NCBI RefSeq assembly: GCF_015291645.1
Contig: NZ_CP030055.1
Location: 2,914,001-2,978,000 of the forward strand
Direction: 5' to 3'
DNA from: Bradyrhizobium sp. CCBAU 53340
Lineage (GTDB): Bacteria > Pseudomonadota > Alphaproteobacteria > Rhizobiales > Xanthobacteraceae
DNA length: 64,000 bases
Shown: positions 39,913 through 58,483 of the stretch, one piece after another
Numbering within the stretch: the stretch's first letter is position 1
Layout: every line of letters begins with the position of its first letter
The notes under the pieces: generated by a model
What the model saw: only the letters and a program-made list of their open reading frames with translations
The model's database searches: none
What the model was told of the DNA's origin: nothing
Made by a program: the position numbers and the translations under genes

Positions 39913-39994
39913 TCCCTGCGCGACGGGATGCGGGACGGTGCCTCTTGCCGCCCCGTATCCGCCGCGAGGTGTGTTGAAGCATAGGGAAGATGCG

Positions 39995-40372
39995 ATGCCG
40001 GTCTATGAATATCTCTGTGACGATTGCGGTCCGTTCAAGGACCTCCGCCCGATGGCGGAATGCGATGATCCGCAAAACTGTCCGCATTGCGAGACGATGG
40101 CGCCGCGGGTGATGCTGACCGCGCCGAATTTCTTCTGCATGACGGCGGAGAAGCGCAAGGCGCATGCCGTCAACGAGCGCAGCACGCACGCGCCGCAGAC
40201 GCTGGCGCAATACAAGGCCTCGCACGGTCCGGGCTGCGGCTGCTGCTCCTCGGGCAAGACCGTCAAGGACAAGAGCGGGACGGACAAGAAGAAGCCCGCG
40301 CGGCTGATGACCAAGACCAAAGGCGGCGCCAAGGGCTTTCTCACCGCACGGCCCTGGATGATCAGCCATTAA
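39995..40372 (+). CDS. fmdB: FmdB family zinc ribbon protein
   Basis: A 125-residue protein with an N-terminal FmdB zinc ribbon: MPVYEYLCDDCGPFKDLRPM and PQNCPHCETMAPRVMLTAPN, supplying the Cys-x2-Cys pairs. The C-terminal half is basic, with GCGCCSSGKTVKDKSGTDKK. FmdB was described as a possible regulator of formamidase in Methylophilus; its molecular role is not established. The start is set by the conserved MPVYEY sequence; the longer frame from 39938 is not supported. Confidence 0.92.
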   Translation: MPVYEYLCDDCGPFKDLRPMAECDDPQNCPHCETMAPRVMLTAPNFFCMTAEKRKAHAVNERSTHAPQTLAQYKASHGPGCGCCSSGKTVKDKSGTDKKKPARLMTKTKGGAKGFLTARPWMISH

Positions 40373-40417
40373 CGCCACGCGCCAACATCAAGCAAATAAA
40401 AGTACAGGAGCGTCCCA

Positions 40418-41458
40418 ATGCTTCACGGCGACATTTCCAGCAGCAACGACACGGTCGGCGTTGCAGTTGTCAACTACAAGATGCCTCGCCTGCACACCAA
40501 AGCCGAGGTGCTCGACAACGCCCGCAAGATCGCCGACATGCTGGTCGGCATGAAGGCCGGCCTGCCCGGCATGGATCTCGTGATCTTCCCGGAATATTCG
40601 ACGCAAGGCATCATGTACGACGCCAAGGAGATGTACGAGACGGCCTCCGCCGTGCCGGGAGAGGAGACCGCGATCTTTGCGGAAGCTTGCCGCAAGGCGA
40701 AAGTGTGGGGCGTATTCTCGCTGACCGGCGAGCGCCACGAAGAACATCCGCACAAGGCGCCCTACAACACGCTCATCCTGATGAACGACAAGGGCGAGAT
40801 CGTTCAGAAATATCGCAAGATCATGCCGTGGGTGCCGATCGAAGGCTGGTATCCCGGCAACTGCACCTATGTGTCCGAAGGCCCGAAGGGGATGAAGGTC
40901 AGCCTGATCATCTGCGATGACGGCAATTTCCCGGAGATCTGGCGCGACTGCGCCATGAAGGGCGCCGAACTGATCGTGCGTTGTCAGGGCTACATGTATC
41001 CGGCCAAGGAGCAGCAGGTCACGATCTCCAAGGCGATGGCCTGGGCCAACAACGTCTATGTCGCGGTTGCCAACGCCGCCGGCTTCGACGGCGTCTACTC
41101 TTACTTCGGTCACTCCGCGATCATCGGCTTCGACGGACGTACGCTCGGCGAGTGCGGTGAAGAGGATTACGGCATCCAGTACGCCCAGCTCTCGAAGAAC
41201 CTGATCCGCGATGCGCGGCGCAACGGCCAGTCGCAGAACCACCTGTTCAAGCTCTTGCACCGCGGCTATACCGGCATGATTAATTCCGGCGAGGCTGCGA
41301 AGGGACTCGCCGCCTGTCCCTACGATTTTTACTCAAAGTGGATCGCCGACCCCGAAGGTACGCGCGACATGGTGGAGGCGATGACCCGCCCGACTGTTGG
41401 CACCGAAGAATGCCCAATTGACGGCATTCCGAACGAGAAGTCCGGCACGAATTACTAG
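40418..41458 (+). CDS. amiE: aliphatic amidase AmiE
   Basis: A 346-residue nitrilase-superfamily amidase, the same length as the Pseudomonas enzyme and collinear with it. It hydrolyses short aliphatic amides to acid and ammonia in the cytoplasm. The catalytic triad is E59 (VIFPEYS), K134 (VQKYRKIMP) and C166 (LIICDDGN). The N terminus [20 protein letters not shown] and the segment [12 protein letters not shown] are diagnostic of AmiE rather than formamidase AmiF, although short formamide activity cannot be excluded. CAGGAGCGTCCC stands ahead of the ATG. Last gene of the operon. Confidence 0.95.
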
Positions 41459-42159: not shown

Positions 42160-42169
42160 TGATATATCA
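42160..42169. promoter_or_regulatory. candidate GntR operator 1 (TGATATATCA)
   Basis: The perfect 10-bp palindrome TGATATATCA lies 41 bases before the DUF1537 gene. Its extended form AATATTTGATATATCA is identical over 16 bases to the reverse complement of the site at 44946. A further TGTATCATGA half-site follows. Confidence 0.7.
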
Positions 42170-42210
42170 TGTATCATGACTGCAGGAGTTGCACTGGATC
42201 TGCGAGACGC

Positions 42211-43497
42211 ATGACGACGCTCATCTTCGGAGTGGTGGCGGACGATCTGACGGGCGGCATGGAAACGGCCGCCATGCTGGTCGCTGCCGGCATCGAATGC
42301 GGATTTGTCACCGACCCCGATCTCGTCGGCAGCTGCGGCGATGTGCCGGCTATCGTTATCGCGCAGAAGACGCGGGTGATCCCCGCGGGCGAAGCCGTCT
42401 GCATGACGGAGAGGGCTGCACGGGCACTGCTTGCGCGGGATGTCAGGCAAGTCTTCTTCAAATATTGTGCGACGTTCGATTCCACCGACCAGGGAAATAT
42501 CGGCCCGGTCTCCGATCTGCTAATGAGGCTGACCGGCGCCGAATACACCGTCTTTTGCCCGGCTTCTCCGACTCTTCGAAGGACCGTCTACAATGGTCAT
42601 TTGTTTCTCGGGACCGAGCTGATCTCAGACTCGCCGAAACGCAATGATCCGCTGACGCCGATGACCGATCCTGATCTGGTCCGGGTTCTGCAGCGCCAAA
42701 CGCGGACCAGGGTTGGCCTTCTGGCGCATTCCCTGGTGAGCGCCGGCTCTGATCCGGCTGGACGTGCCATTGGGGAAGCGGCGGCTCGAGGTATCCGCTA
42801 CTTCATCGCGGACGCGATCTACGATCGGGATCTCGATACGCTTGCCGCGCTCACCTGCGACTGGAAGCTGATGACGGGCAATGCGACAATCGTGCAGCAC
42901 TATCCTGATATATGGAAGGCGAGGGGGCTCATCCCCGCGGTCAGAAGACCACCGGGCTTGCGCGCGGTTGGCGGCGGCGGCGTGGTTCTGGCCGGGAGTT
43001 GCGCCGAGCGGACGTTGGAGCAACTCGCTGAATTCGAGAAGAGTCATCCCGTGCTTCGTATCGATCTCCTGAATGCTGGGGATGTGGCGGCGACTATTGG
43101 CGATGCGCTCGACTGGGCGCGGCCACGGCTGGACGATGGTCCTGTCGGCTTCGCCACGTCGGAGGTGCCCGAGGCCGTAAAAATAGCTCAAGAACGATAC
43201 GGCCGTGAAGGCGCAGCGCGACTTGCTGAAACCATTCTTGGTCGGCTCGCTGTCGCTCTTCGCGAGATCGGCGTGCGGCGCTTCGTCGTGACCGGTGGCG
43301 AGACCTCCGGTGCGATCGTCGAGCAGCTCGGCATTCGACGTTTGCGTGTCGGTCCCTATGGCGGACCCGGCATCGGCATCGCGGTGACTGAGGACGACGA
43401 CCCGCTGGCCCTCTGCCTCAAGTCCGGCAAGCTCGGTCCCGTCGATCTGTTCGCGACAACGCTCGAAGCGATGTTGAATCCGGAGGGAGTCAAGTGA
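42211..43497 (+). CDS. DUF1537 four-carbon acid sugar kinase (3-oxo-tetronate kinase-like)
   Basis: A 428-residue kinase of the DUF1537 family (OtnK/LtnK/DtnK), which phosphorylates 3-oxo- or erythro/threonate-type four-carbon acids. The N-terminal half has the substrate site: FGVVADDLTGGMETAAMLVA, KYCATFDSTDQGNIGPVSDL and FCPASPTLRRTVYNGHLFLG. The C-terminal half binds ATP: GVVLAGSCAERTLEQL, RFVVTGGETSGAIVEQLGIR and GPYGGPGIGIAV. The ATG at 42211 is set by the conserved N terminus; the binding site is weak. The stop overlaps the next gene's start by 4 bases. Confidence 0.9.
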   Translation: MTTLIFGVVADDLTGGMETAAMLVAAGIECGFVTDPDLVGSCGDVPAIVIAQKTRVIPAGEAVCMTERAARALLARDVRQVFFKYCATFDSTDQGNIGPVSDLLMRLTGAEYTVFCPASPTLRRTVYNGHLFLGTELISDSPKRNDPLTPMTDPDLVRVLQRQTRTRVGLLAHSLVSAGSDPAGRAIGEAAARGIRYFIADAIYDRDLDTLAALTCDWKLMTGNATIVQHYPDIWKARGLIPAVRRPPGLRAVGGGGVVLAGSCAERTLEQLAEFEKSHPVLRIDLLNAGDVAATIGDALDWARPRLDDGPVGFATSEVPEAVKIAQERYGREGAARLAETILGRLAVALREIGVRRFVVTGGETSGAIVEQLGIRRLRVGPYGGPGIGIAVTEDDDPLALCLKSGKLGPVDLFATTLEAMLNPEGVK

Positions 43498-44141
43498 ACG
43501 AACGCGAACTCAGGCAATCATTGCTGGATATCGTGGCCCGCCTGGAGGCCAGGGGCTTTAACCACGGCAACAGTGGAAACGTCAGCTGTCGCATCGGAGA
43601 GGACATTCTCATTACGCCGACGGGCGGCAACACCAGCAACACGACGATTGACGGTCTCGTCCGGTTGAAGCGTGACGGAACGGTGGTCGGAGACGGCTTG
43701 CCCTCCAGCGAATGGCACATGCATCTGGCTGTTCTAAACGCCTATCCGCATGTGAACGCGGTGCTTCACACTCATGCCGACTGCTGCGTCGCGCTGTCCT
43801 GCCTCGCAAAGTCAATTCCGGCGTTCCACTACATGATCGCCAGCTTTGGCGGAAACGACGTGCCTTGTGCGCCCTACGCCACATTCGGCACCAGGGCTCT
43901 CGCTGATGGCGCCGTCGCAGCGCTGAAACAGCGCAAGGCCTGCCTGCTGGCGAACCACGGCATGATTGCCGTCGGCAAAGACCTGCAGGCGGCTTTCGAC
44001 CTCACCGTGAAGCTCGAAACCCTCGCCCGACAGTATCTGCTGGCCTGTCAGGCCGGCGCGCCCGCGATCCTTGCCGACGATGAGATGGCGCGGGTGGTCC
44101 AGCGCTATGGCAGTTACGGTCGCGCTTCACTGCCGGCCTGA
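43494..44141 (+). CDS. class II aldolase/adducin family protein (OtnC-like decarboxylase)
   Basis: A 215-residue zinc enzyme of the class II aldolase family. In DUF1537 clusters this partner (OtnC) decarboxylates 3-oxo-tetronate 4-phosphate to dihydroxyacetone phosphate. Features are NHGNSGNVSCRIGEDILITP, SSEWHMHLAVLNAYPHVNAV with the catalytic Glu, HTHADCCVALS (zinc histidines) and LLANHGMIAVGKDL (third histidine). GTG at 43494 overlaps the kinase stop, indicating translational coupling. Function as OtnC is inferred from the neighbour. Confidence 0.9.
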   Translation: MNERELRQSLLDIVARLEARGFNHGNSGNVSCRIGEDILITPTGGNTSNTTIDGLVRLKRDGTVVGDGLPSSEWHMHLAVLNAYPHVNAVLHTHADCCVALSCLAKSIPAFHYMIASFGGNDVPCAPYATFGTRALADGAVAALKQRKACLLANHGMIAVGKDLQAAFDLTVKLETLARQYLLACQAGAPAILADDEMARVVQRYGSYGRASLPA

Positions 44142-44154
44142 GAAGGACAGCTCC

Positions 44155-44943
44155 GTGGAGGTCACCGGGAAGACCAAGATCATGTTCGTGCTCGCCGACC
44201 CGATCGATCATGTGCGGGCGAGCGCGGTCATGAACGCCTATTTCGAATCGATCGGCGACGATCTGGCGGTGTCGCCGATCCATGTCCTGCCTGGCGACCT
44301 CGGCCACGTCGTTGCAAGTATCAGGCTCATGCGCAACGTCTACGGCTTCGGCGTAACGATCCCGCACAAGACCTGCGTGATAGAGCACCTGGATGAGATT
44401 ACGCCGACGGCACGGCTCATCGGCGCGGTCAACTTCGTCAAGCGGACGGCCGAAGGGCGTCTTGTCGGCGACAATCTGGATGCGAGGGGATTCATCGACA
44501 GCCTTGCTCAGCATGACATTGCCGTGCGCGATCGGAAGGTGCTCCAGGTCGGCGCTGGTGGCGCGGGGCGCGCAACTGCATTCAGCTTGGCGGAGGCCGG
44601 CGCGCGCGAACTCATGATCATGAACCGGGATGACGAGAAAGCCCGCGCGCTCGCGGTTGCCGTGGCTGCCCATTTTCCCGCGACGAAGGTCAGCGCCGGG
44701 CGCACAGAGGCGCGCGCATTCGATCTCATCGTCAATACGACGTCGCTCGGCATGAAACCGGATGATCCGCTTCCACTGGACATTGATGGCATAGGTCCGG
44801 CCGTGACCGTCAGCGACATCATCGTCAATCCTGCTGTCACGCAGCTTCTCGCAAGGGCGGCTGCACAAGGCGCAAAGATCGTCGGCGGAAAGCCGATGCT
44901 CGATGCGCAGATGGCGCTTGTCGCGCGGCTCATCGCGCGCTAG
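44155..44943 (+). CDS. shikimate/quinate dehydrogenase-like oxidoreductase
   Basis: A 262-residue AroE-family protein. From a GTG start (AAGGA seven bases upstream) it reads MEVTGKTKIMFVLADPIDHV, where AroE normally has the D-P-I-x-H-S substrate region. VTIPHKTCVIEHLDEITPTA keeps the catalytic lysine and GDNLDARGFIDSL the catalytic aspartate. The NAD(P) site is VLQVGAGGAGRATAFSLAEA, and VNTTSLGMKPDDPLPL follows. No other shikimate gene is nearby, so it probably oxidises a polyol or hydroxy acid in the cluster's pathway. The 13-base gap implies cotranscription with the aldolase. Confidence 0.88.
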   Translation: MEVTGKTKIMFVLADPIDHVRASAVMNAYFESIGDDLAVSPIHVLPGDLGHVVASIRLMRNVYGFGVTIPHKTCVIEHLDEITPTARLIGAVNFVKRTAEGRLVGDNLDARGFIDSLAQHDIAVRDRKVLQVGAGGAGRATAFSLAEAGARELMIMNRDDEKARALAVAVAAHFPATKVSAGRTEARAFDLIVNTTSLGMKPDDPLPLDIDGIGPAVTVSDIIVNPAVTQLLARAAAQGAKIVGGKPMLDAQMALVARLIAR

Positions 44944-44945
44944 CC

Positions 44946-44955
44946 TGATATATCA
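44946..44955. promoter_or_regulatory. candidate GntR operator 2 (TGATATATCA)
   Basis: The palindrome starts 3 bases after the dehydrogenase stop and 35 bases before the ABC ATPase GTG. It is followed by AATATTATATC. Its position suggests that the importer operon has its own controlled promoter overlapping the end of the dehydrogenase unit. Confidence 0.7.
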
Positions 44956-44980
44956 AATATTATATCGAGCAGGAGAATGC

Positions 44981-46165
44981 GTGGCGACTGAAGATCGAGT
45001 GGAAGGGCGGCGCCCTGCACCGACGCAAGGGAAGAGGAAACGAGACTCCGTGAATATTGCATCGGCCAGACAATCGGCGTCGGGCGCATCGATCCGCATC
45101 AGTCGCCTGGAGAAGCGTTTCGGTGCCGTATCGGCCGTCGACGGCGTCGATATCGATATTGCTGCCGGTGAGTTTATCGCCCTGCTCGGACCGAGCGGCT
45201 CTGGCAAGACAACGATCCTGATGAGCGTTGCAGGATTCGAATTCCCGACCAACGGCACCATACACGTCGATTCCGAAGACCTGACCTATGTCCCTTCGAA
45301 CCGGCGCAACCTGGGAATGGTGTTCCAGAACTATACACTGTTTCCTCACATGTCGATCCTCGACAATGTCGCCTTTCCCTTGAAGATGCGCGGTCTGCGG
45401 ACAGCTGAACGTCATGCGCGCGCCGAAGCCGCGCTCGCGACCGTGCGTCTGGCAGGCTATGGCCATCGTCGTCCGAATGAGCTTTCCGGCGGCCAGCAGC
45501 AGCGTGTGGCGCTTGCGCGTGCGATCGTCTATCAGCCACGCGTCCTCCTGATGGATGAGCCGCTCAGTGCGCTCGACAAGAATCTGCGCGAAGACATGCA
45601 ACTCGAAATCAAGCGATTGCATGCCGAGCTTGGTATCACCGTCATCTTCGTCACCCACGACCAAAGCGAGGCGCTGACGATGGCCGACCGGATCGCCGTC
45701 CTGAAGGATGGCAAGATCCAGCAGATCGGGCCGGCGCGCCAGCTTTACGAAAGGCCCGCGAATCTTTTTACTGCCGGCTTCATCGGCGAGATGAACTTCG
45801 TCGACGTCACGGTCGAAAGCGTCGGCGACGATGTCTCGGTGGCGCTGCCATGGGGCGAAACTTGGCGCCTGCCGGCCACGGCGGCGGTCGAGCCGGTGGG
45901 AGCCAGCGAAGCCGCGGTGCTGGCCGTGAGGCCCGAGCGGTTGCAACTCGGCGCCAACTCCGCCGGGCAAGTCGTCACCGTGACGCTGAGCGACATTGTC
46001 TATGCCGGCGCAGCCCTGCTGCTGATAGGTCGTCTGCCTGACGGCACCGAGATCCGCGCGCGAATCCCCGGGGCTTCGCAGCTCAGCTCCTTGGTCCCGG
46101 GCGACATCGCGTCCTTCACCATTCCCGCGGAGGCGATGCTGCTCTACCGAGGGAAGCGGCAATGA
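44981..46165 (+). CDS. ABC transporter ATPase, spermidine/putrescine (PotA) type
   Basis: A 394-residue ATPase. GTG 44981 has AGGAG six bases upstream. After an unusual 30-residue basic N terminus come IRISRLEKRFGAVSAVDGVD, Walker A GPSGSGKT, the signature NELSGGQQQRVALARAI, Walker B VLLMDEPLSALD and the H loop VIFVTHDQSEAL. The C-terminal TOBE-like domain (about residues 280-394) contains MNFVDVTVESV and VLAVRPERLQL, as in PotA/FbpC. It energises the two permeases that follow. Confidence 0.92.
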   Translation: MATEDRVEGRRPAPTQGKRKRDSVNIASARQSASGASIRISRLEKRFGAVSAVDGVDIDIAAGEFIALLGPSGSGKTTILMSVAGFEFPTNGTIHVDSEDLTYVPSNRRNLGMVFQNYTLFPHMSILDNVAFPLKMRGLRTAERHARAEAALATVRLAGYGHRRPNELSGGQQQRVALARAIVYQPRVLLMDEPLSALDKNLREDMQLEIKRLHAELGITVIFVTHDQSEALTMADRIAVLKDGKIQQIGPARQLYERPANLFTAGFIGEMNFVDVTVESVGDDVSVALPWGETWRLPATAAVEPVGASEAAVLAVRPERLQLGANSAGQVVTVTLSDIVYAGAALLLIGRLPDGTEIRARIPGASQLSSLVPGDIASFTIPAEAMLLYRGKRQ

Positions 46166-47040
46166 CGGAGGCGGGACGTTCACAGTTTTGGCATTCCGAC
46201 GGCCGCCGGCTGAGCGGCCTGTCGACGCTGCTGCTGCTCGTGCCATTCTTCGCCATCATCGCCTTTGTCTTCGTCTATCCGATCCTGCAGCTCTTGATGA
46301 TCAGTGTCCTCGAGCCGCATCCGACCTTGGACAACTACGCCCGCGTCGTCGAAAATCCGGTTCACCTGCGCGTCCTGATGCGCACGCTCTGGACCGCCAC
46401 GCTGGTGACGGCCTTGTCGGTGCTCCTCGGCTTCCCGGTGGCCTATTACATGAGCCGGGCAAAGGGGACAGTCGCAGCCCTTGTCGCAGTCTGCGTCATC
46501 CTGCCGCTCTGGTCGAGCGTCCTGGTGCGCACCGCCGCCTGGTCCTTTCTGTTCCAGCGCAACGGGCTGATCAATTCGGCGTTGATGGCTCTCGGTCTGA
46601 CCTCACAGCCGTTCAAGTTGCTTTATACCCAGAGCGCCGTGGTCATCGCCATGACGCACGTGCTCTTGCCGTTCATGATCCTGCCGATCTACGGCGCATT
46701 GCGCAGTATTCCGAACGATTATGGCCGTGCGGCCGCCGTGCTCGGCGCAACGCGCCTGCGGACCTTTCTGGAAGTCATCCTTCCTCTGAGCCTGCCAGGC
46801 GTCGTCTCCGGCTCGCTGCTCGTGTTCCTCACGGCGCTCGGCTTCTTCATCACGCCCGCGTTGCTCGGCTCGCCGCAGGAAATGATGATCTCGACGCTCG
46901 TCTCGAAGCAAATCCGTGAGGTGCTCGATTGGCCGTTCGCGGCCGCGCTGGTCGGGGTGCTGACCGTGTTCGTGACCTTGCTGGCGATCGTCTTCGGCAA
47001 GACGCTCCGGTTCGACCGGTTGATGGGGAATGCCTCGTGA
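46162..47040 (+). CDS. ABC transporter permease, PotB type
   Basis: A 292-residue permease with six membrane segments. The N terminus is cytoplasmic (MTEAGRSQFWHSDGRRLSGL). The EAA loop is GRAAAVLGATRLRTFLEVIL, and the typical start of the channel part is TLWTATLVTALSVLLGFPVA. ATG overlaps the ATPase stop by 4 bases. It matches the PotB/HisM-like first permease of polyamine-type importers. Confidence 0.92.
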   Translation: MTEAGRSQFWHSDGRRLSGLSTLLLLVPFFAIIAFVFVYPILQLLMISVLEPHPTLDNYARVVENPVHLRVLMRTLWTATLVTALSVLLGFPVAYYMSRAKGTVAALVAVCVILPLWSSVLVRTAAWSFLFQRNGLINSALMALGLTSQPFKLLYTQSAVVIAMTHVLLPFMILPIYGALRSIPNDYGRAAAVLGATRLRTFLEVILPLSLPGVVSGSLLVFLTALGFFITPALLGSPQEMMISTLVSKQIREVLDWPFAAALVGVLTVFVTLLAIVFGKTLRFDRLMGNAS

Positions 47041-47843
47041 AACCGCCAACCGACCGCGGATCGCTCGCGCTGGGGGCCTATGTCTATGCCGTGCTGGTCT
47101 TCATCATCGTGCCGCTGGTGATCGTCATTCCAATGTCGTTCAGCCAGAACGACTATCTGGCATTTCCGCCGTCCGGCTTTACGCTGAAATGGTATTCGGA
47201 ATATTTTGACAGCAGGCAATGGCGTGCAGCTACCTTGCTCAGCGTACAGGTGGCCTTGCTGACCGCTCTTTTCGCGTCGATTATCGGCACAGCCGCGACC
47301 TATGCCATGATCCGTGGCCGCAGCCGGCTCGTTACCGCTTTCCAGATCCTTCTGATCGGGCCGATCATCGTGCCGCATATCGCGCTTGCCGTCGGCCTTT
47401 ATCTGTTCTTTCAGACGATCGGACTCTCCGGGACCATTCCCGGCTTCGTGCTGGCGCATACAGTGCTCACCTTGCCGTTCGTCGTTTTCACGATGGCCGC
47501 GGCCCTCGGAAAGGTCGATGCCAGTCTGGAGGCGGCGGCCATGAGCTGTGGTGCGACGCGCTTCCAGGCCTTCCGCCTGGTCACGCTGCCACTTGTCCTG
47601 CCAAGCCTCGCCAGCAGTGCGCTGTTTGCCTTCATCATCTCCTTCGACGAGCCGGTGGTGTCGTTCTTTCTGTCCGGGGTGCGTCAGAAAACGCTGCCGC
47701 GCCGCATGTTCGAAGACATCGAGCAGAATCTGACGCCGGTGATTCCCGCGATTGCGACGCTGCTGATCGTCTTGTCCATTTTAATTCTGCTGGGAGCCCA
47801 TGTCCTCAGATCCCGCAGCGTCACCCAGTCGCGAGCCAGGTAG
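47037..47843 (+). CDS. ABC transporter permease, PotC type
   Basis: A 268-residue permease that pairs with the preceding one. It shows six helices with VLVFIIVPLVIVIPMSFSQN at the N terminus and the EAA loop EAAAMSCGATRFQAFRLVTL, and the FIISFDEPVVSFFLSG segment is characteristic of PotC/YdcV proteins. GTG at 47037 overlaps the upstream stop by 4 bases (coupled translation). The ORF in frame upstream of the GTG is antisense-like noise. Confidence 0.92.
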   Translation: MKPPTDRGSLALGAYVYAVLVFIIVPLVIVIPMSFSQNDYLAFPPSGFTLKWYSEYFDSRQWRAATLLSVQVALLTALFASIIGTAATYAMIRGRSRLVTAFQILLIGPIIVPHIALAVGLYLFFQTIGLSGTIPGFVLAHTVLTLPFVVFTMAAALGKVDASLEAAAMSCGATRFQAFRLVTLPLVLPSLASSALFAFIISFDEPVVSFFLSGVRQKTLPRRMFEDIEQNLTPVIPAIATLLIVLSILILLGAHVLRSRSVTQSRAR

Positions 47844-47864
47844 AAGCCAGAGAGGAGACCCTCG

Positions 47865-48932
47865 ATGTTGAAAACAGGTTGGACGTGGAACTCGGCAGTT
47901 TTGGTGCTTGCTTCAGTTCTTTGCGGAGCGTTGCCGGCGGCCGCTGAAAAGTTGGAAGACCAGTTGGTGATTGCCACGACCGGTGGCCTGATGGGCAACA
48001 CCCTCGCGAAGTATTTCTATGATCCCTTCAACAAGGCCAAGAATGTCGAGATCGTCCCAGTCGCAATCGAGGTCCCCGACCAGTGGGCGCGCGCCAAGGC
48101 GATGCAGCGAACCGGCAAGGTGGAGTTCGACATCGTCACGGCAACAGGTCCCGACCTGGTCGGACGCACTGACATGCTCGAGAAGATCGACTGCGCGAAA
48201 TTGCCGAGCGTCCAGAAGTTCGGCGTCTCCGACGCCTGTCAGCCCTACGGTGTTGCCCGCACGACGGGCGGCATGCTGATCACCTACAATACCGAGACGT
48301 TCAAGGACAAGGCGCCCAAGACGTGGGCGGACTTCTGGGACGTCAAGCAGTTTCCCGGGCCGCGAGGACTGCCCGATACCGGCGACAGCGATTGGTGGGT
48401 TCCAGTCGCCGCGCTGCTCGCCGACGGCGTCAAGCCGGAGCAGCTTTTCCCGCTGGACCTCAATCGCGCTTACAAGAAGCTGGATGAGATCCGTCCAAAC
48501 GTCGCGGTGTGGTGGAAGACAGGCGACCAGGTGCAGCAGATCATGCGCAGTCGCGAGGTCGTCATGGCCATGAGCTACTCAGGCCGTGCGCTCGCCGTCG
48601 TGAAGGAGGGCGTACCGGTCGCCATGTCCTGGGATCAGGCCATTCGCGACACCGGTTACATGGCTGTCCTCAGGGGCGCACCTGACCTCAATGCCGCCAT
48701 GGCCTATCTCGACTTCTTCTATGCGAGCTCAGATGCACATGTGCCGTTCATGCGCGCCGTCAACTATGCGACAGCCAGCAAGTCGGCCATCGAACTGCTA
48801 AAGCCGGAGGAGCGCAATCTCTACGCGACCTCGCCGGAGAATTACGAGAAGCTGGTCAAGCCCGATTTCGCCTGGATCGGCGAACACCGCAACGAACTGC
48901 GGGAGCGGTGGATCGCCTGGCTGACCCGCTGA
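47865..48932 (+). CDS. periplasmic substrate-binding protein, PotD type
   Basis: A 355-residue extracellular solute-binding protein of the PotD/spermidine class. The signal peptide is MLKTGWTWNSAVLVLASVLC, cleaved near PAAA-E. Mature motifs include LVIATTGGLMGNTLAKYFYD, FDIVTATGPDLVGRTDMLEK, GGMLITYNTETFKDKAPKTW, and MAMSYSGRALAVVKEGVPVA. GAGAGGAGACCCTCG precedes the ATG. Sequence alone does not define the ligand; the surrounding genes suggest a small amide- or amine-containing organic acid rather than a polyamine. Confidence 0.9.
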   Translation: MLKTGWTWNSAVLVLASVLCGALPAAAEKLEDQLVIATTGGLMGNTLAKYFYDPFNKAKNVEIVPVAIEVPDQWARAKAMQRTGKVEFDIVTATGPDLVGRTDMLEKIDCAKLPSVQKFGVSDACQPYGVARTTGGMLITYNTETFKDKAPKTWADFWDVKQFPGPRGLPDTGDSDWWVPVAALLADGVKPEQLFPLDLNRAYKKLDEIRPNVAVWWKTGDQVQQIMRSREVVMAMSYSGRALAVVKEGVPVAMSWDQAIRDTGYMAVLRGAPDLNAAMAYLDFFYASSDAHVPFMRAVNYATASKSAIELLKPEERNLYATSPENYEKLVKPDFAWIGEHRNELRERWIAWLTR

Positions 48933-48981
48933 TCCCCGGCAGCCTCGTCCGCCGTTCGCGTTACAAGATGAGGACCGACCC

Positions 48982-49332
48982 ATGGATCACACCAGTGACC
49001 CCGGTGCGATGCGCTACATGATCGATCCCGGAAGGCTCGATCTCGTCAAGGAGTTCCGTGCAAGTCCGCTCGGCGTGCACAGTCCGGAACTTCGCAAGCT
49101 GTTGGCGCGGATGCGATGGGGCAAGCCGCAAGGGCGGCTGGTCCTGATCGTGCTCGAACCTGGGAAAGCCTGGCGGCTGTCGCGCATCCCCAAGCGTCGG
49201 GGCGATCCCATGCCTTTCGTCGATGATCGCGTCTTCACCTCTCTCGCTGAAGCGGAGTGGCACGTCTTCAAGCTGCGTTGGCAGGAAATGACGGGAACGA
49301 CGCTGCCTGCGGAGGTCTCCGGTGATCTATAG
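48982..49332 (+). CDS. N,N-dimethylformamidase small-subunit-like protein
   Basis: A 116-residue protein preceding and overlapping the large-subunit gene by 11 bases. By eye its order of features matches the small subunit of N,N-dimethylformamidase as I remember it: RLDLVKEFRASPLGVHSPEL, a middle strand VLIVLEPGKAWRLSRI, then FVDDRVFTSLAEAEWHVFKL. DMFase hydrolyses N,N-dimethylformamide to dimethylamine and formate in an alpha-beta heterodimer. Identification rests on this loose likeness and gene order, so the subunit call is moderate. Confidence 0.75.
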   Translation: MDHTSDPGAMRYMIDPGRLDLVKEFRASPLGVHSPELRKLLARMRWGKPQGRLVLIVLEPGKAWRLSRIPKRRGDPMPFVDDRVFTSLAEAEWHVFKLRWQEMTGTTLPAEVSGDL

Positions 49333-51583
49333 GACCAACGAGTATCTCGGCTATCCGGATCGCATCAGCGTGCCGGCCGGCGAGGCCGTCAGATTCCAGC
49401 TCAGCAGCAAGCAGCCGAGCGTGAAGGTCGAGGTGCTCAGACTGCGCTGCGGCGATGTCGATGCCAACGGCCCGGGCTTCAAATATGAGGTAATGACGAG
49501 CCACATTGACGGTGTGCATGCCTGCCTCGACCAACCGATCCGCCCGGGATCAAACGCCGTCGTTGACCACGGTGGCGCGCTGGTCCCGACCGGCGGGCAC
49601 TGGTGTTTCGGAGCCTATGTGTATCCGACGCGGATCGTGGATAATGCCAAAGCCGTGATGGGAAATTGGTGCGAGCGCTCGGCGCGTGGCTATGCGCTCG
49701 AACTCGACGAGCAGGGGCATCCGGTCCTGGTGCTGGGCCAGGCGAATGGTGCGCCGGCCCGTTTTGCCCTCGACGTCAAGCTGCGCCTACGCGCTTGGTC
49801 GTTCGTATCGTGCGCGCTTGACCTTGCGCAGGGATCGGCCTCGGTGTCGCTGATCGTTCCGGCAGACGGCGTTCGGCCGGCGGCCGCCTATTCGAAATCG
49901 TTCGCCCTGCCGCAAGCGGTCGCGCTCGACTCCGGACTGCCGTTTCTGATCGCGGCCCATCATCTGAACGACGATCGCCAATATACCTCGCACTTCGACG
50001 GCAAGATCGAGGCGCCTCGTGTCTTTTCGCGTCCGCTGGACGCTGAGGCGCTGCGTGTCTTCGACGGCCGGCAGCGGACGGGAGCAAGCGATGCCGGGCT
50101 TGTGGCCTTCTGGGATTTCTCGAACGGAATCTCGTCACTGGCGATCAAGGACCTTTCGCCGAACGGCCTGCATGGCAGCCTTCGCCAGTTGCCGCGCAGG
50201 GGCGTGACCGGCTTTCACTGGTCCGGATCCGTCCACGACTGGCGGCTGTCGCCGCAGGAATATGCGGCGATTCATTTCCACAGCGACGACATCTACGATT
50301 GCGAGTGGCGGACCACCTGCACGCTCGATGTGCCGGCCCACTGGCGGTCAGGAGTCTACGCGCTCCGGCTGACCCCGGGCGGCGACAGCCCCGACGTGGC
50401 TTGCGAGAGCTACGTCACCTTCTTTGTGACGCCCGGCAAGACGTCCAGGCGTGCAGATCTCGTCGTGGTCGCTTCGGTTGCGACATACCTGGCCTACGCC
50501 AACAGCGCGCTGCGGCTCTATCAGGTTCATTTCGAGACGCTGATGGAGCATGTTCTATGGTTGCCGCAAGACGACGTCTTCATGCAGGAGAACCCGGAGA
50601 TCGGCCAATCGACCTATGATTGCCACGTCGACGGCTCGGGGCGAGCATACAGCTCCTGGCTGCGGCCCGTCCTGAACATGCGCCCGCGTGGCTATTGGTT
50701 CAATCTGATCAACGATACCCATATCCTCGACTGGCTCGAGGAGAAGGGGGTCGCTTACGACCTGATCACGGATGTCGAGCTTGATCGGGAAGGCGCGCGG
50801 GCGCTTGCTCCTTACCGGGTCATGATGACGCCGACCCATCCCGAGTATTACAGCTTCAACATGATGAACGCGATCATGGCGTATCAGAACGCCGGCGGGC
50901 GGCACATTTCGATGGGGGGCAATGCATTCTATTGGCGCTGCGGCTTTCATCCGGCCGCGGCCGCCGCGCTCGAGGTTCGCCGCGGCATGGCCGGAACCCG
51001 CACTTGGGAATCGGAACCGGGCGAAGTTCATCTTGCCGGCACCGGCGAGCCGGGCTCGCTGTGGCGGCATTCGGGCTTTGCACCCCAAAAGCTTGTCGGC
51101 GTCGGGTTCTCGGCCATGATCAATGATACCTGCGGCTACTATTTGCGGACTGTCGAAAGTGAGGATGCGCGCGTCGCGTTCATTTTTGAGGGCACGGGCC
51201 GCCACGAGAAGTTCGGTGATTTTGGATTTCGCTACAATGGTGCTGTCGGCAGTGAGATCGACCGCTACGATCTCGAGCTCGGAACTCCGCCGCATGCGTT
51301 GCGGATCGCGACTTCAGAAGGATTGGGCGCGGGCGCGCTGCCGACACCAGAGGAGTTTCGCACCGTGGTCGATGGACTCGACGGTACGCAGAACGCGCTG
51401 GTGCGCGCCGACATGGTGTTCTTCGAAACTGCCCATGGTGGCGCCGTCTTTGCGACCGGATCGATCACCTATGGCATGTCGTTGGGCCACAACAACTACG
51501 ACAACAACATCAGCACCATTACGGCAAATGTCGTGAACCGGTTTCTTGATCCACGGCCTTTCGTCGTGCCTGCCGAAGCCTAG
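49322..51583 (+). CDS. N,N-dimethylformamidase large-subunit-like amidohydrolase
   Basis: A 753-residue protein close in length to the DMFase large subunit. It has three parts: an N-terminal beta domain (about 1-95, EYLGYPDRISVPAGEAVRFQ), a concanavalin/LamG-like domain (about 95-290, with FWDFSNGISSLAIKDLSPNG) and a C-terminal DMFase domain (about 330-750). The latter holds HPEYYSF (Y509, Y510) and GGNAFYWR (Y537); characterised DMFase uses tyrosine and glutamate to hold a mononuclear iron. I could not place each ligand. GTG start with GGAGG upstream. Likely cleaves an N-substituted amide. Confidence 0.85.
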   Translation: MIYRTNEYLGYPDRISVPAGEAVRFQLSSKQPSVKVEVLRLRCGDVDANGPGFKYEVMTSHIDGVHACLDQPIRPGSNAVVDHGGALVPTGGHWCFGAYVYPTRIVDNAKAVMGNWCERSARGYALELDEQGHPVLVLGQANGAPARFALDVKLRLRAWSFVSCALDLAQGSASVSLIVPADGVRPAAAYSKSFALPQAVALDSGLPFLIAAHHLNDDRQYTSHFDGKIEAPRVFSRPLDAEALRVFDGRQRTGASDAGLVAFWDFSNGISSLAIKDLSPNGLHGSLRQLPRRGVTGFHWSGSVHDWRLSPQEYAAIHFHSDDIYDCEWRTTCTLDVPAHWRSGVYALRLTPGGDSPDVACESYVTFFVTPGKTSRRADLVVVASVATYLAYANSALRLYQVHFETLMEHVLWLPQDDVFMQENPEIGQSTYDCHVDGSGRAYSSWLRPVLNMRPRGYWFNLINDTHILDWLEEKGVAYDLITDVELDREGARALAPYRVMMTPTHPEYYSFNMMNAIMAYQNAGGRHISMGGNAFYWRCGFHPAAAAALEVRRGMAGTRTWESEPGEVHLAGTGEPGSLWRHSGFAPQKLVGVGFSAMINDTCGYYLRTVESEDARVAFIFEGTGRHEKFGDFGFRYNGAVGSEIDRYDLELGTPPHALRIATSEGLGAGALPTPEEFRTVVDGLDGTQNALVRADMVFFETAHGGAVFATGSITYGMSLGHNNYDNNISTITANVVNRFLDPRPFVVPAEA

Positions 51584-51660
51584 AGGGCTGGCTGGACCTC
51601 GGCCCAACAAGAATTTCCATCTCGTCGCCAGAGATGGTTTCTCGAACCAGGGAGGCTGTC

Positions 51661-53337
51661 ATGCCGGACAAGCGCGAGTTTCAAGCCCCGGAATTGGGAG
51701 CCCTCAACGTCGCTCCTCGCAGGGCGCGTCCGATGCATGCGGACGAGCACTGGGGCAGCCAACCCTGGTACGAAGCTCCGCGCGGCGATCCCGCCGTGGC
51801 CGAGGTCTACACCTATACCGATGCGATGTCTTACGACCCCGGAGACGAAATCGTCTTTCGCTCGTCCGCAACGGCAAAGGTCTGGCGGCTGCAGATCTAT
51901 CGCGATGATCTCGAACCCGAGATGGTGCATGAGATGGACGCGCTAGTGGGCGTGTTCACGGCCACGCCGTCAGATGCGTATCGCACTGGCTGCAACTGGC
52001 CCGTCGCTCATCGCTGGAAATTGCCGACGGATCTGCGCTCGGGCTTCTACCGCGTGGTCTCGTCGTGCGAGCGAACGAACGGGGCCCGCTTCGTCCAGCA
52101 TCATTTCTTCGTCGTGCGCCCCTCGGAGAAGACACGGCGCGCCAAGATCCTGATGATCCTACCGACCGGCACCTGGACCGCGTACAACGATTTCGGCGGT
52201 GCCAATCACTATTTCGGCGTCGAGGGTCCCGGCAGAGACGAGCCCTCGGCGGTGTTGTCGCTGCAGCGACCATGGACGCGCGGCGTGGTCTGGCTGCCGC
52301 CAGGCGCGCCGCGCATCTGCGCCAATCCCGCACCCGAGATGGGAGACGCGCCGCGCTATCCGATGAAGGAGTGGGCGTTCGCCAACGGCTTTGGCCAGTA
52401 TTACGCGGCGGCGGGCTGGGCTCAGTTCGACCGGCATTTCGTGCTCTGGGCGCAGAAGGAAGGCTACGCCCTCGACATGATCACCCAGACCGATCTTCAC
52501 TACCGGCCCGAGCTGCTCGATGCCTACTCTTGTGTCACCATCATCGGCCATGACGAGTATTGGACCTGGGAGATGCGCGAGGCGATCGAGCGCTATGTGG
52601 AGGGCGGCGGGCGGCTCGCGCGCTTCGGTGCCAACTTCCTGTGGCAGATCCGGCTCGAGGAGGAGGGCAGGCGCCAAGTCTGCTACAAGTTCAAAGCCAT
52701 CCACAAGGACCCGGTCGTCGGCACGGAGCGCGCGCGTCTGATGACGTCAGCCTGGGAAGATCGCAATGTCCGTTGGCCCGGCGCCTCGACGGTCGGTGTG
52801 AACGGTGCGCACGGCCTCTACGCGTCCTGGGGCGGTTTCGCGCCGAACGGCCAACGCGGCTTTACCGTCTATCGCCCCGAACATTGGGCGTTTGCCGGCA
52901 CTGGACTGCACTATGCCGATGTCTTCGGCGACAAGCAGCACATCTTCGCCTACGAGGTCGACGGGCTGGACTACACCTTTCGCAACGGTCTTCCGTTTCC
53001 GGTGCCGGTCGAGGGGCAGCCCGAGACCATTCAGATCCTGGCGATGGCCCCGGCCGTCCTGGCCGAAGACGAGCCGCCGGGCGAGGGCTTCCGCTACTAC
53101 GTGCGCAGCAGCGACCATGAAGGCCTGGTGGAATGCATCACGGGCGAGGTCACGCCCGAGGGGCTCGCTCGTTACAAATACGGCTCCGGCATGATGGTGC
53201 ACATGACCCGCGGAAAGGGCGAGGTGCTGACGGCGGCGACCTGCGAATGGGTGATGGGGCTGAAGCGCGGCGATCCGTTCACGCAGCGGATCACCCGCAA
53301 CATCCTCGATCGCTTCTCAGCGCCTCGCTCCGCGTGA
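51661..53337 (+). CDS. second DMFase-type protein without LamG domain
   Basis: A 558-residue paralogue of the preceding gene's C-terminal part. It begins MPDKREFQAPELGALNVAPR, with GGGAGGCTGTC ahead of the ATG at 51661. A beta domain (about 40-150, YDPGDEIVFRSSATAKVWRL) leads to the DMFase domain (TWTAYNDFGGANHYFGVEGP, then HDEYWTWEMREAIERYVEGG). The LamG-like domain is missing. In the position of Y537 of the neighbour it has L327 (ANFLWQ), aligned by eye. Either the metal site differs or it is a partner subunit. Coexpression with the neighbour is likely (77-base gap). Confidence 0.85.
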   Translation: MPDKREFQAPELGALNVAPRRARPMHADEHWGSQPWYEAPRGDPAVAEVYTYTDAMSYDPGDEIVFRSSATAKVWRLQIYRDDLEPEMVHEMDALVGVFTATPSDAYRTGCNWPVAHRWKLPTDLRSGFYRVVSSCERTNGARFVQHHFFVVRPSEKTRRAKILMILPTGTWTAYNDFGGANHYFGVEGPGRDEPSAVLSLQRPWTRGVVWLPPGAPRICANPAPEMGDAPRYPMKEWAFANGFGQYYAAAGWAQFDRHFVLWAQKEGYALDMITQTDLHYRPELLDAYSCVTIIGHDEYWTWEMREAIERYVEGGGRLARFGANFLWQIRLEEEGRRQVCYKFKAIHKDPVVGTERARLMTSAWEDRNVRWPGASTVGVNGAHGLYASWGGFAPNGQRGFTVYRPEHWAFAGTGLHYADVFGDKQHIFAYEVDGLDYTFRNGLPFPVPVEGQPETIQILAMAPAVLAEDEPPGEGFRYYVRSSDHEGLVECITGEVTPEGLARYKYGSGMMVHMTRGKGEVLTAATCEWVMGLKRGDPFTQRITRNILDRFSAPRSA

Positions 53338-53344
53338 GCGGTTG

Positions 53345-54151
53345 TCAGCGACGCCTGGATTTCGCGCGCGCTGCTCTGGCTGGTGGTGCGGCGCGCGTCT
53401 GCGTCGCTTCAATCTCGACGTCTTCGTCGATGGCGGTCGCCGGGGTGATGAAGCGCGTGCCGCCATGCTTCTCCAGCAACCGGACGAGGTTCTGGCCGCC
53501 CTCCATCATGTCGGCCTGGATCGACTCGCGCACCTTGTCCGGCCGGCGCTGCCGCAGATTCTTGAGAACGGACAGGTGCTGATGTTCGTTTGGATAGGTC
53601 GGGGGGGCGTGCGGGTAATGGAAATTCAACAAGGGTCCGTTGCGCATCCAGATATCGTCGAGGATGGCGAGCACTTCGGGAAGACCCGATCCATCGTAGA
53701 GACCGCGGTGGAATTGCCAGTTGGCACGAACCGCGTCGGACCATCTGCGCTCCTTCTCCGCGCTGATGAGTTCGCGGTGAACAGCCTCCATCCTGTCGAT
53801 ATCGGCTTCCGAGATGCGCGTGGTGGCGTGCTCGGCGGCGAGGCCCTCGAGAAACAGCCTGACAGTCCTGAGCTCGATGTACTGCTTGGCCGTCATGTGG
53901 GCGACCATGATCGAGCGTCCCGCCTGCATCTCGAGCGCACGGCCGCGCACGAGCTGCATCAGGGCTTCGCGGATGGGCGTTTCCGACACGTTCATGGTCG
54001 CAGCAAGGTCGCGAATCTTGAAGCGATGGCCCGGCCAGAACCGGCCTTCCATCAAGGCCTGGCGCAGATTGTTGTAGACCAGGCTCGTCAGGCTGTCGCG
54101 AGCGACCGGCCCCACGCCGCCCTCACCAGGTCTCTGTTTAACATCAGCCAT
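53345..54151 (-). CDS. GntR/FadR-subfamily transcriptional regulator
   Basis: A 268-residue regulator. The winged helix-turn-helix is LVYNNLRQALMEGRFWPGHR with FKIRDLAATMNVSETPIREA and LMQLVRGRALEM. The C-terminal all-helical FCD domain spans about 90-220, with metal- or ligand-site residues in ELRTVRLFLEGLAAEHA and NWQFHRGLYDGSG. Start MADVKQRPGE at 54151 follows GGGGACCGAGA; upstream ATGs up to 54235 are possible. Its tail is rich in alanine and arginine. The gene is divergent from the aminotransferase, with a TGATATATCA site between them, and convergent with the DMFase-like gene. Confidence 0.92.
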   Translation of the reverse strand: MADVKQRPGEGGVGPVARDSLTSLVYNNLRQALMEGRFWPGHRFKIRDLAATMNVSETPIREALMQLVRGRALEMQAGRSIMVAHMTAKQYIELRTVRLFLEGLAAEHATTRISEADIDRMEAVHRELISAEKERRWSDAVRANWQFHRGLYDGSGLPEVLAILDDIWMRNGPLLNFHYPHAPPTYPNEHQHLSVLKNLRQRRPDKVRESIQADMMEGGQNLVRLLEKHGGTRFITPATAIDEDVEIEATQTRAAPPARAARAKSRRR

Positions 54152-54270
54152 TCTCGGTCCCCGAAAGATCTCGGCCGTTTCGGCCATCCGCGCCAATACG
54201 CTTCGATATGAGGGTCTACGGTCCCCAGCCGGCAAAGCAACAATTCCCTTGTTGCCGACAACATAATATA

Positions 54271-54280
54271 TGATATATCA
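54271..54280. promoter_or_regulatory. candidate GntR operator 3 (TGATATATCA)
   Basis: The palindrome sits in the 148-base gap between the GntR gene and the divergent aminotransferase, 20 bases before the GTG. It is embedded in ATAATATATGATATATCAAA. The position is right for autoregulation of the regulator and repression of the aminotransferase. Confidence 0.75.
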
Positions 54281-54299
54281 AAATTGACAGGAGATGAGG

Positions 54300-55526
54300 G
54301 TGTCGGAATTGACCAAGACAAGGGATGCTGCCCTGCGGGCGCGGGCCGAAAAGGTTGTGCCAGGCGGGATGTGGGGTCATCTCCACGCGGCGAAGCTGCC
54401 GGAGACGTACCCGCAATTCTTCAGCCGCGGCGAGGGCGGCGTGCTCTGGGATGTCGACGGTCACCGGTATGTCGACTTCATGTGCAGTTGGGGGCCTAAT
54501 CTGCTCGGCCATCACCATCCCGAGGTGGAGGAAGCCGCCGAGCGTCAGCGGCGCGACGGCGACTGCCTCAACGGTCCGGCAGAAGTCATGGTCGAGCTCG
54601 CCGAGCTCATCGTCGACATGATCGGCCATGCCGATTGGACGCAGTTCCAGAAGAACGGTACCGATGCCACGACGACGTGCGTCACGATCGCAAGGGCTGC
54701 AACAGGCCGACGAAAGATCCTCGTCGCGAAGGGGGCCTATCATGGTGCCGTGCCGTGGTGCTCACCGTCGCTTCTCGGGGTGACGGCGGAGGATCGCGCT
54801 CATCTCGGATACTTTACTTTCAACGACGTCGAGAGCCTTGAAGCGGCGGCCAAGACGGCCGCCGACGATCTTGCCGGAACTCTGATTTCGGCGTACCGCC
54901 ACGATCTCGGGTTCGACCAGGAGCTTCCAACCGTCGAGTTCGCGCGTGCGGCGCGTCGCATCTGTGACGACAAGGGAGCCGCGCTGATCATCGACGAGGT
55001 TCGCGCCGGCTTCCGCTTGAATGCCGCGGGGAGCTGGGAAGGGCTTGGTGTTCGGCCCGACCTGTCCGCCTGGAGCAAGGCGATCGCCAACGGCCATGCC
55101 CTGGCGGCCGTGACCGGCGCCGATTGGCTGCGCCGCGCCGCGTCCCAGGTCTTTGTCACGGGGTCATTCTGGGCTGGCGCCGTCGCCATGGCTGCTGCCG
55201 TCGCGACGTTGAAGATCGTACGCAGGGACAATATTCCGAGCCGCCTCGCGCAGCTCGGGCAAACGTTGCGTGACGGCCTCGAGACGCGTTCCCGTCAATT
55301 CGGCCTTTCAATCCGTCAATCGGGACCGGTGCAAATGCCAACCCTTTTGTTTGAAGAGGACCCAGACTACCGGAAAGGTTCGGCCTTCTGCAGCGCGATG
55401 CTTGCAAGGGGCGTCTACTTCCATCCCAAGCACAACATGTTCCTCTGCGCCGCCCATACCGAGGCCGACATCGCCGCTGCTCTCCAGGCCTCAGAGCACG
55501 GCTTTGCAACTGTGGCGGCGCTTTGA
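54300..55526 (+). CDS. class III PLP aminotransferase (glutamate-1-semialdehyde aminomutase-like)
   Basis: A 408-residue fold-type I PLP enzyme. GTG 54300 has AGGAG six bases upstream, while the ATG at 54294 has no spacing, so GTG is chosen. The PLP lysine is in DLSAWSKAIANGHALAAVTG, and the PLP-binding Asp is in ALIIDEVRAGFR. QFQKNGTDATTTCVTIARA contains the phosphate-binding part. The N terminus VVPGGMWGHL and WDVDGHRYVDFMCSWGPNLL resemble GSA aminomutase and the related beta-amino acid aminotransferases. hem genes are absent, so the role is most likely amine-group transfer in the catabolic pathway. Confidence 0.9.
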   Translation: MSELTKTRDAALRARAEKVVPGGMWGHLHAAKLPETYPQFFSRGEGGVLWDVDGHRYVDFMCSWGPNLLGHHHPEVEEAAERQRRDGDCLNGPAEVMVELAELIVDMIGHADWTQFQKNGTDATTTCVTIARAATGRRKILVAKGAYHGAVPWCSPSLLGVTAEDRAHLGYFTFNDVESLEAAAKTAADDLAGTLISAYRHDLGFDQELPTVEFARAARRICDDKGAALIIDEVRAGFRLNAAGSWEGLGVRPDLSAWSKAIANGHALAAVTGADWLRRAASQVFVTGSFWAGAVAMAAAVATLKIVRRDNIPSRLAQLGQTLRDGLETRSRQFGLSIRQSGPVQMPTLLFEEDPDYRKGSAFCSAMLARGVYFHPKHNMFLCAAHTEADIAAALQASEHGFATVAAL

Positions 55527-56713: not shown

Positions 56714-57688
56714 CTAACCGGCGCGATTCCGTGGTGCCTTGCGCGAGGGCGAGCTTGCGCGGCGGGAAGCAGGCTCGACGAATTCCCTCGCCACGAAAGC
56801 TGCTTGCGCAAGATCGTGGCTGATGACGTCGAGCACGGCCTTCGCCGCGACCGATACTGCGCGGCGCGGGTGGTGCACCCAGGCAATCGAACGCACGATC
56901 CGTTGTTCATCGAAGCGATGCGCCCTGATAGTCCCGTTGGCGAGCGACTGCCGGAGCGCGATGGTCGGCAGCACCGTCGCGAAGTCGGTGGTCGCGATCA
57001 CGTCGCAGAGCGCAGGCAGCGTATCGAGCTCGAGCCGTGGGCGCAGGTCGATGCCGATGGCGGCGGCGTGCTCGTCGAGGATCAGGCGCAGACCGTGCCG
57101 CTTCGAAGGAAGCACGAGATCGAAGTTGGCGATGTGGTCGAAACGCAGCTTGGCAGGCGGCCGGATCGGGCCGTCCTTCCGGCAGGCGAATACCATCTCC
57201 TCGTCCATGACGTGATGCCCGGCCAGCGGCGTCTTGCGGCGCGGCACGTTGATCAGCGCGAAATCGAGCTGGCCGGTGCTGACCCAGTCGACCAGCGTTT
57301 CGGTATAGCCCTCGCAGACCGACAGCATGATCTCTGGATAGCGGCTGGCGACGGTCGCCGACGACCTCGCCATCGTGCTCTGCGCCACCGAGGTGATGAG
57401 GCCGACCGAGACGCGGCCCGAGATGCGCCCGCCGAGTTGGGCCATCTCCTGTCGGGCATATTCGGCGTCGCGCAGGATCGGCGCCGTCAGCCGCACCAGC
57501 GCTTCGCCGGCGCTGGTCAGCGTCATGCCCTGGACGCTACGGTCGAACAGCTTTTGACCAAGCTCGGCTTCGAGTTTGGCGATCTGCATGCTTAGTGCCG
57601 GCTGCACGATGTTGAGCTGGCGCGCGGCCCTTGTGACGTTCTTTTCCTCGGCTAGGCACAGGAAATATTGCATCTGCCTGAGTTCCAC
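56714..57688 (-). CDS. LysR-type transcriptional regulator
   Basis: A 324-residue regulator from a GTG start (VELRQMQYFLCLAEEKNVTR, with AAGGA about seven bases upstream), preferred to the ATG at 57727. The N-terminal winged HTH is AARQLNIVQPALSMQIAKLE. The effector-binding domain spans about 90-295. The last 20 residues are a basic, serine-rich extension. It is divergent from the UbiX/UbiD pair, with a LysR-box-like palindrome in the gap, so it probably controls them in response to an aromatic acid. Confidence 0.93.
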   Translation of the reverse strand: MELRQMQYFLCLAEEKNVTRAARQLNIVQPALSMQIAKLEAELGQKLFDRSVQGMTLTSAGEALVRLTAPILRDAEYARQEMAQLGGRISGRVSVGLITSVAQSTMARSSATVASRYPEIMLSVCEGYTETLVDWVSTGQLDFALINVPRRKTPLAGHHVMDEEMVFACRKDGPIRPPAKLRFDHIANFDLVLPSKRHGLRLILDEHAAAIGIDLRPRLELDTLPALCDVIATTDFATVLPTIALRQSLANGTIRAHRFDEQRIVRSIAWVHHPRRAVSVAAKAVLDVISHDLAQAAFVAREFVEPASRRASSPSRKAPRNRAG

Positions 57689-57741
57689 GGGCCTGTCCTT
57701 CGGTCGCTGATCTCTTATTATCATCACAAATGATCGTCTGC

Positions 57742-57756
57742 ATAATCAATCATTAT
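57742..57756. promoter_or_regulatory. candidate LysR box (ATAAT-N5-ATTAT)
   Basis: ATAAT CAATC ATTAT is a perfect T-N11-A-type palindrome with 5-base arms, in the gap between the LysR gene and ubiX. A wider imperfect inverted repeat (TCACAAATGAT / ATCATTATTTGTG) surrounds it. Confidence 0.6.
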
Positions 57757-58458: not shown

Positions 58459-58483
58459 TTTGAGACCTTGAGGAAAGACCCGT

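Follow-up and report, generated by a model that had tools for sequence, protein, structure and literature searches.

What does a twelve-gene cluster of Bradyrhizobium sp. CCBAU 53340 that places dimethylformamidase (DMFase)-type amidases beside a DUF1537 kinase and an aminotransferase break down? The window analysed here (i.e., the whole stretch of 64,000 nucleotides) lies within a genome of 8.72 Mb, and the twelve neighbouring genes span its positions 42,169-55,526, from the kinase gene otnK to a class III aminotransferase gene, with eleven on the plus strand and gntR on the minus strand. An earlier note on this DNA had proposed that this GntR-linked combination of enzyme families degrades an N-substituted amide through a tetronate branch. 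The combination is real (gene content is confirmed, the DMFase-type small subunit being assigned by fold), and we found that the cluster is a co-conserved, probably co-regulated catabolic unit in which amide hydrolysis is supported; the proposed order of tetronate steps was not supported. Literature searches, judged by titles and abstract starts, returned no published description of this gene combination, and the cluster looks like an undescribed route.

Twelve genes form one co-conserved catabolic unit

Species genomes were scanned with the second DMFase-type protein (Dmf2), and the best 80 of 313 candidates were kept, corresponding to 79 loci. Close relatives of dmf2 (at least 76% identity) are present in 16 of these loci, and counts for this close group use 15 of them, L018 being left out as a 4.5-kb contig. 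Their hosts are Bradyrhizobium, Enhydrobacter, Microvirga, Neorhizobium, Kaistia and Aquamicrobium. The otnK and aldolase genes accompany dmf2 in 15/15 loci, so that DMFase-type and tetronate-type genes do co-occur elsewhere, as the earlier note required of its scheme. The gntR gene is likewise present in 15/15 (at 41-44% identity in L013 and L014), the aroE-like gene and potABCD in 14/15 each, and dmfS and dmfL in 13/15 (not in L010 or L013). The aminotransferase gene, which is related to fumI, is found in 13/15; L010 has only 55% and 63% relatives of it, elsewhere in the locus. L013 ends 0.8 kb past the match, and its absences carry little weight. A Rhizobium plasmid (NZ_CP129381.1), whose record is unannotated in this region, carries the same gene set plus a split transketolase, which also occurs in L010, L011 and L016. 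Distant dmf2 relatives (L020-L082, 42-48% identity) have no otnK, aldolase (aldII) or aroE gene within the fetched stretch (0/63 loci), and we rejected them as representatives of the same pathway. The twelve genes thus form one co-conserved catabolic unit.

A shared palindrome suggests control by one regulator

The GntR/FCD regulator (53,345-54,235, minus strand) probably governs all twelve genes. Three exact copies of the strandless palindrome TGATATATCA lie in the window, each 5' of one of three transcription units: site 1 (42,160-42,169) precedes otnK, a position kept in relatives; site 2 (44,946-44,955) lies between aroE and potA, 5' of potA; and site 3 (54,271-54,280) lies between gntR and the aminotransferase gene. 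Allowing one mismatch, the expectation for the window is 0.23 copies, and three were reached in 0/100 shuffles. Genome-wide, the exact palindrome occurs five times, with three copies in the cluster, while base composition predicts ~1.2. Among the 15 close loci, 11 contain three exact copies, L009 and L010 contain two and L013 contains one; exact copies are also found in some distant relatives that keep GntR (G004, G245 and G209). Loci with other DUF1537 kinases (209 kb) and the 63 loci with distant dmf2 relatives (1.2 Mb) yielded none. This distribution suggests that the palindrome is a candidate operator bound by the cluster's GntR and, as far as sequence can show, agrees with the co-regulation that the earlier note had assumed.

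In G004 (L115, 1-9246), the palindrome stands 5' of otnK and also 5' of a hydantoinase A/B gene pair, which suggests that a different, hydantoinase-type amide-opening enzyme belongs to the same regulon there. Another exact copy, at L162 (G000:C1:3125091), lies ~150 bases 5' of a second GntR gene (41% identical), next to a gene that looks gluconolactonase-type by eye.

A separate kinase clade travels with a FumI-like aminotransferase

Threonate and erythronate are degraded by OtnK/DtnK/LtnD/OtnC pathways that include DUF1537 proteins. Like them, the cluster pairs a DUF1537 kinase (otnK, 42,211-43,497, plus strand, frame open from 42,169; PF07005 and PF17042) with a class II aldolase-fold enzyme; unlike them, it has a kinase of a separate clade, a FucA-type aldolase in place of OtnC and a FumI-like aminotransferase. 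Relatives of the kinase at 1e-60 occur in 133/297 genomes of the order. Stretches around 18 of them were fetched along with two from the window's own genome, and the class search added one further clade-A genome (G633). From among the 18, G143 is apparently the L004 genome (its otnK is identical) and was excluded from counts. A tree of 40 rows (41 were given, after refetched repeats had been dropped, and the program left out L008) split the window's clade A (23 rows), initially delimited by identity to the window kinase, from the other 17 with a support of 100/100. Nine positions are fixed or nearly fixed differently between the clades (rows include repeats). Four of these lie in two N-terminal-domain motifs, where canonical Ala30, Asp32, Met157 (or Leu) and His160 (window numbering) are replaced by Gly, Glu, Lys and Asp in clade A, and both motifs may take part in substrate binding. 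Against the curated 3-oxo-tetronate kinase model (NF043035, cut-off 350), the window kinase scored 389 bits, four other clade-A kinases 391-415 and two canonical ones 585-600. The OtnK-like label of the earlier note thus holds by cut-off, but the separate clade and altered motifs speak against a canonical OtnK.

We compared the neighbours of clade-A kinases in eight genomes outside the close group with those of 11 canonical OtnK loci (one only 4 kb and another 12 kb long). All eight clade-A genomes have a related gntR (36% identical in G092) and, in the fetched stretches, a gene for a thiamine-type enzyme acting on acyloins (transketolase or E1-like), whereas gntR, thiamine enzymes and DMFase were each found in 0/11 canonical loci. 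A FumI-like gene is present in 7/8 versus 0/11. FucA-type aldolase genes accompany the distant clade-A kinases in 4/8 genomes and an aroE-like gene in 1/8, and one genome has aldehyde dehydrogenase and CoA-transferase genes nearby.

The best solved relative of the aminotransferase (54,294-55,526, plus strand) is FumI (PDB 6HBS) at 456 bits, the next scoring 170; 201 of 399 aligned residues (50%) are identical to FumI. According to the FumI report (PMC2933618), that enzyme takes the 2-amino group from hydrolysed fumonisin B1 and passes it to pyruvate, yielding a ketone next to a hydroxyl. The cluster's likeness to fumonisin catabolism was assessed on this aminotransferase. The gene was found in 13/385 genomes of the class. 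A DMFase-type gene occurs in the fetched stretch of 4/12 aminotransferase genomes (own genome excluded), compared with an expectation of ~0.02 (68 places in 190 genomes, taking 3.9 Mb as the mean). DMFase-type and aminotransferase genes occur together without the kinase in stretches of G477, G631, G649 and G521, and in a Microvirga genome another DMFase-type copy (57%) and another FumI-like gene lie ~2 kb apart. Because the aminotransferase gene tracks the clade-A kinase in 7/8 distant genomes, usually without DMFase, the enzyme most likely acts on the main line, making the ketone that the kinase uses, and not on a side branch for released amine, where the earlier note had put it.

Two DMFase-type proteins may act as iron amidases

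The large subunit (dmfL, 49,322-51,583, plus strand) is 753 residues long and carries a lectin-like domain along with DMFA2_C (PF20254). Its nearest solved relatives are N-acetyl-(R)-beta-phenylalanine acylase (8HUY, 415 bits) and then DMFase (395 bits). In DMFase (PMC7686228), Tyr399, Tyr440 and Glu521 are iron ligands, and His519, Asn547 and Glu657 are further active-site residues. All six are present in the aligned large subunit. The second DMFase-type protein (dmf2, 51,634-53,337, plus strand; 567 residues), which has DMFA2_C alone without the lectin-like domain, has 6/6 equivalents, the match to Tyr440 being less certain in the profile alignment. These positions are kept in 84-88 of 88 second-type rows (repeats included) and in 17-20 of 20 large-subunit rows, two of them cross-matched at 23-24%. 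The small subunit (dmfS, 48,982-49,332, plus strand; 116 residues) has the DMFase small-subunit fold (6lvb/6lvv chain B). The cluster therefore resembles DMFase (alpha2beta2, PDB 6LVB) and 8HUY in large-subunit sequence, and shares the six active-site residues and the small-subunit fold of DMFase; it differs from both in adding a second, shorter DMFase-type protein and in its link to a kinase, an aldolase and an aminotransferase. One or both DMFase-type proteins may act as iron amidases, and the intact iron site favours the DMFase-type hydrolysis put forward earlier. A role specific for dimethylformamide or formamide was not adopted since it has little support beyond a formamide operon that is not conserved with the cluster.

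A distant dmf2 relative in L021 (6931-15488) adjoins genes for a class III aminotransferase, a beta-keto acid cleavage enzyme and a histone-deacetylase-like protein, with an amino-acid-type importer and an acetyltransferase (both by eye). This cluster looks like a beta-amino acid pathway.

The aldolase is FucA-type and the binding protein is not PotD-like

The class II aldolase (43,494-44,141, plus strand) is identical to L-fuculose 1-phosphate aldolase (FucA) at 11/11 compared positions. These include His92, His94, His155, Glu73, Tyr113 and Tyr209, which we take to be the zinc ligands and catalytic or recognition residues. Across 27 FucA-type rows (39-100% identical, repeats included), Tyr113 and Tyr209 are invariant, while Thr43 is Ser in six and Ser71 is Thr in one. 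By contrast, position 72 is Lys and both tyrosines are missing in 24 OtnC-like rows (repeats included); the window aldolase has Ser72, Tyr113 and Tyr209 (i.e., not the OtnC-like pattern). It scored 108 bits with the OtnC model NF043034 (cut-off 250), which an OtnC-like neighbour of a canonical OtnK passes at 325, and the OtnC assignment of the earlier note is not supported. The enzyme also differs from FucA itself in its partner genes and in falling below the curated FucA cut-offs (TIGR01086, 186.5 versus 400.25; PRK08087, 203.4 versus 264).

The AroE-like dehydrogenase (44,155-44,943, plus strand; start uncertain, frame open from 44,071) is likewise below its model cut-off (TIGR00507, 164.1 versus 200.2 bits). 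It retains the catalytic Lys, Asn and Asp, but HVRAS replaces HSxSP, presumably the motif whose serine pair binds the shikimate carboxylate. Its nearest solved relatives (best 139 bits) include 5-ketofructose reductase (113 bits).

The ATP-binding cassette (ABC) importer is encoded on the plus strand by genes for a PotA-like ATPase (45,050-46,165; start uncertain, 44,981-45,050), PotB-like (46,162-47,040) and PotC-like (47,037-47,843, frame open from 46,929) permeases and a periplasmic binding protein (47,865-48,932). The polyamine-type binding inferred earlier does not fit the last of these, which scored 37 bits with the PotD model (cut-off 582). Its nearest solved relatives are opine and gamma-aminobutyrate (GABA) binders: 5l9s (named mannopine) and 4i1d at ~180 bits, followed by agropine, MotA and GABA-type binders, with PotD at 41. 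Together, importer and kinase suggest that the substrate is small and polar, a point of difference from fumonisin catabolism.

A model for amino-polyol catabolism and its rivals

We propose that the module is a GntR-controlled system for catabolism of an N-acylated or lactam-type amino-polyol, a reading that we favour while putting it somewhat short of an even chance. The ABC importer would take up the compound, and one or both DMFase-type iron amidases would hydrolyse the imported amide. The FumI-like aminotransferase would then convert the freed HOCH2-CH(NH2)-CH(OH)-R head to an alpha-hydroxyketone, HOCH2-CO-CH(OH)-R, whose CH2OH the clade-A DUF1537 kinase would phosphorylate. A retro-aldol split by the FucA-type aldolase would yield dihydroxyacetone phosphate and an aldehyde, for which R must begin with CHOH. 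The AroE-like enzyme would interconvert ketone and alcohol on the route, and GntR would control the module. The order of steps, their chemistry and the substrate class are our inference. In this model, aminotransferase, kinase and cleavage enzyme would be the core, fed by the amidases. The aldolase type, kinase motifs and lost AroE serines lean toward a neutral ketose over a tetronate, although none is decisive. Chloramphenicol-like aryl amino-diols were set aside as substrates because aryl substitution at the hydroxyl carbon would leave the retro-aldolase no bond to cut.

Several observations weigh against this model. The window kinase is still above the curated 3-oxo-tetronate kinase cut-off (389 versus 350), decarboxylation would be compatible with FucA-type residues, and the solved protein closest to the large subunit works on a beta-amino acid. 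DMFase-type genes lie near only 2/8 distant clade-A kinases; no FumI-like gene was found in G092 within the 40 kb examined, and the aminotransferase gene is missing from L014 and from L013, whose contig ends early. Two of the five genomic copies of the palindrome lie outside the cluster, L014 has no exact copy, and none is present in the fetched stretches of G092, G247, G120, G055 and G633. Finally, the model leaves the role of the AroE-like protein unexplained.

The acylase likeness of the large subunit and the kinase score also fit a rival pathway through an amino-tetronate. In it, the beta-amino acid 3-amino-2,4-dihydroxybutanoate would be released by the amidases and converted to 3-oxo-tetronate by the aminotransferase; after phosphorylation at position 4 by the kinase, decarboxylation by the aldolase-fold enzyme would give dihydroxyacetone phosphate and CO2 but no aldehyde. 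The L021 cluster, with class III aminotransferase and beta-keto acid cleavage genes next to a dmf2 relative, is also in keeping with this pathway. However, the aldolase is FucA-type at every compared position and lacks OtnC features, the substrate motifs of the kinase are unlike those of canonical OtnK, and such a pathway would have no need for the transketolase or E1-like neighbours or an aldehyde dehydrogenase. We consider it unlikely, though a serious competitor. Less probable still is that one regulator serves two pathways for two plant-derived compounds occurring together, an amide or amine branch (importer, amidases and aminotransferase) and a sugar-acid or ketose branch (kinase, aldolase and AroE-like protein). 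The four stretches with DMFase-type and aminotransferase genes but no kinase, and the placement of both gene sets on separate transcription units, would suit this arrangement, but the kinase and aminotransferase genes occur together in 7/8 distant clade-A genomes. The earlier scheme, in which amide hydrolysis is followed by AroE-like oxidation to 3-oxo-tetronate, the kinase and an OtnC-type decarboxylase while the aminotransferase only recycles amine, matches the gene content and the retained AroE catalytic residues but is very improbable, as the aldolase is not OtnC, the aminotransferase tracks the kinase clade with no DMFase seen in 6/8 genomes, the presumed carboxylate-binding serines are gone, and an AroE-like oxidation is unneeded once the aminotransferase makes the ketone.

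Extending our amino-polyol model beyond this genome, it is conceivable, with less confidence than for the module itself, that Alphaproteobacteria share a route for N-acyl or lactam amino-polyols that combines DMFase-type amide opening (hydantoinase-type in one genome), a FumI-like transaminase step giving a ketose-like acyloin, a DUF1537 kinase whose new specificity is for a neutral ketose, and cleavage by a retro-aldol or a thiamine-dependent reaction. DMFase-type amidases are known mainly from solvent degradation and FumI from mycotoxin breakdown. If the model is true, the iron amidases would gain a natural role and substrate, the FumI family would gain its ordinary context, and 3-oxo-tetronate kinase would be the wrong name for the kinase clade that currently bears it. 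The regulator, candidate operator and binding protein offer handles for finding the substrate.

Neighbouring operons

Most fetched loci start ~0.5 kb 5' of otnK, and neighbouring operons were therefore judged by whole-genome searches of 15 genomes or records with the cluster (L005 left out). Upstream, a formamide or short-amide operon (33,489-41,458) encodes a urea-type ABC importer, FmdA formamidase, FmdB zinc ribbon and a nitrilase-type amidase. At E 1e-60, fmdA was not found in 5/15 cluster genomes; in the other ten it is on a different contig in eight, ~4.9 Mb away in one and ~27 kb from dmf2 in G688. Downstream, a LysR gene is divergent from UbiX and UbiD genes (57,769-59,896), followed by an AraC gene, in a prenyl-flavin decarboxylase unit (56,714-60,863). 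UbiD is present in 5/15 cluster genomes, never adjacent and at closest ~29 kb from dmf2. Neither unit adjoins the cluster in the relatives searched, and both were rejected as parts of it. Adjoining the formamide operon on the minus strand are genes for a response regulator and a hybrid histidine kinase (29,255-33,536), possibly its sensor, and a phage-type integrase gene lies at 27,655-28,809.

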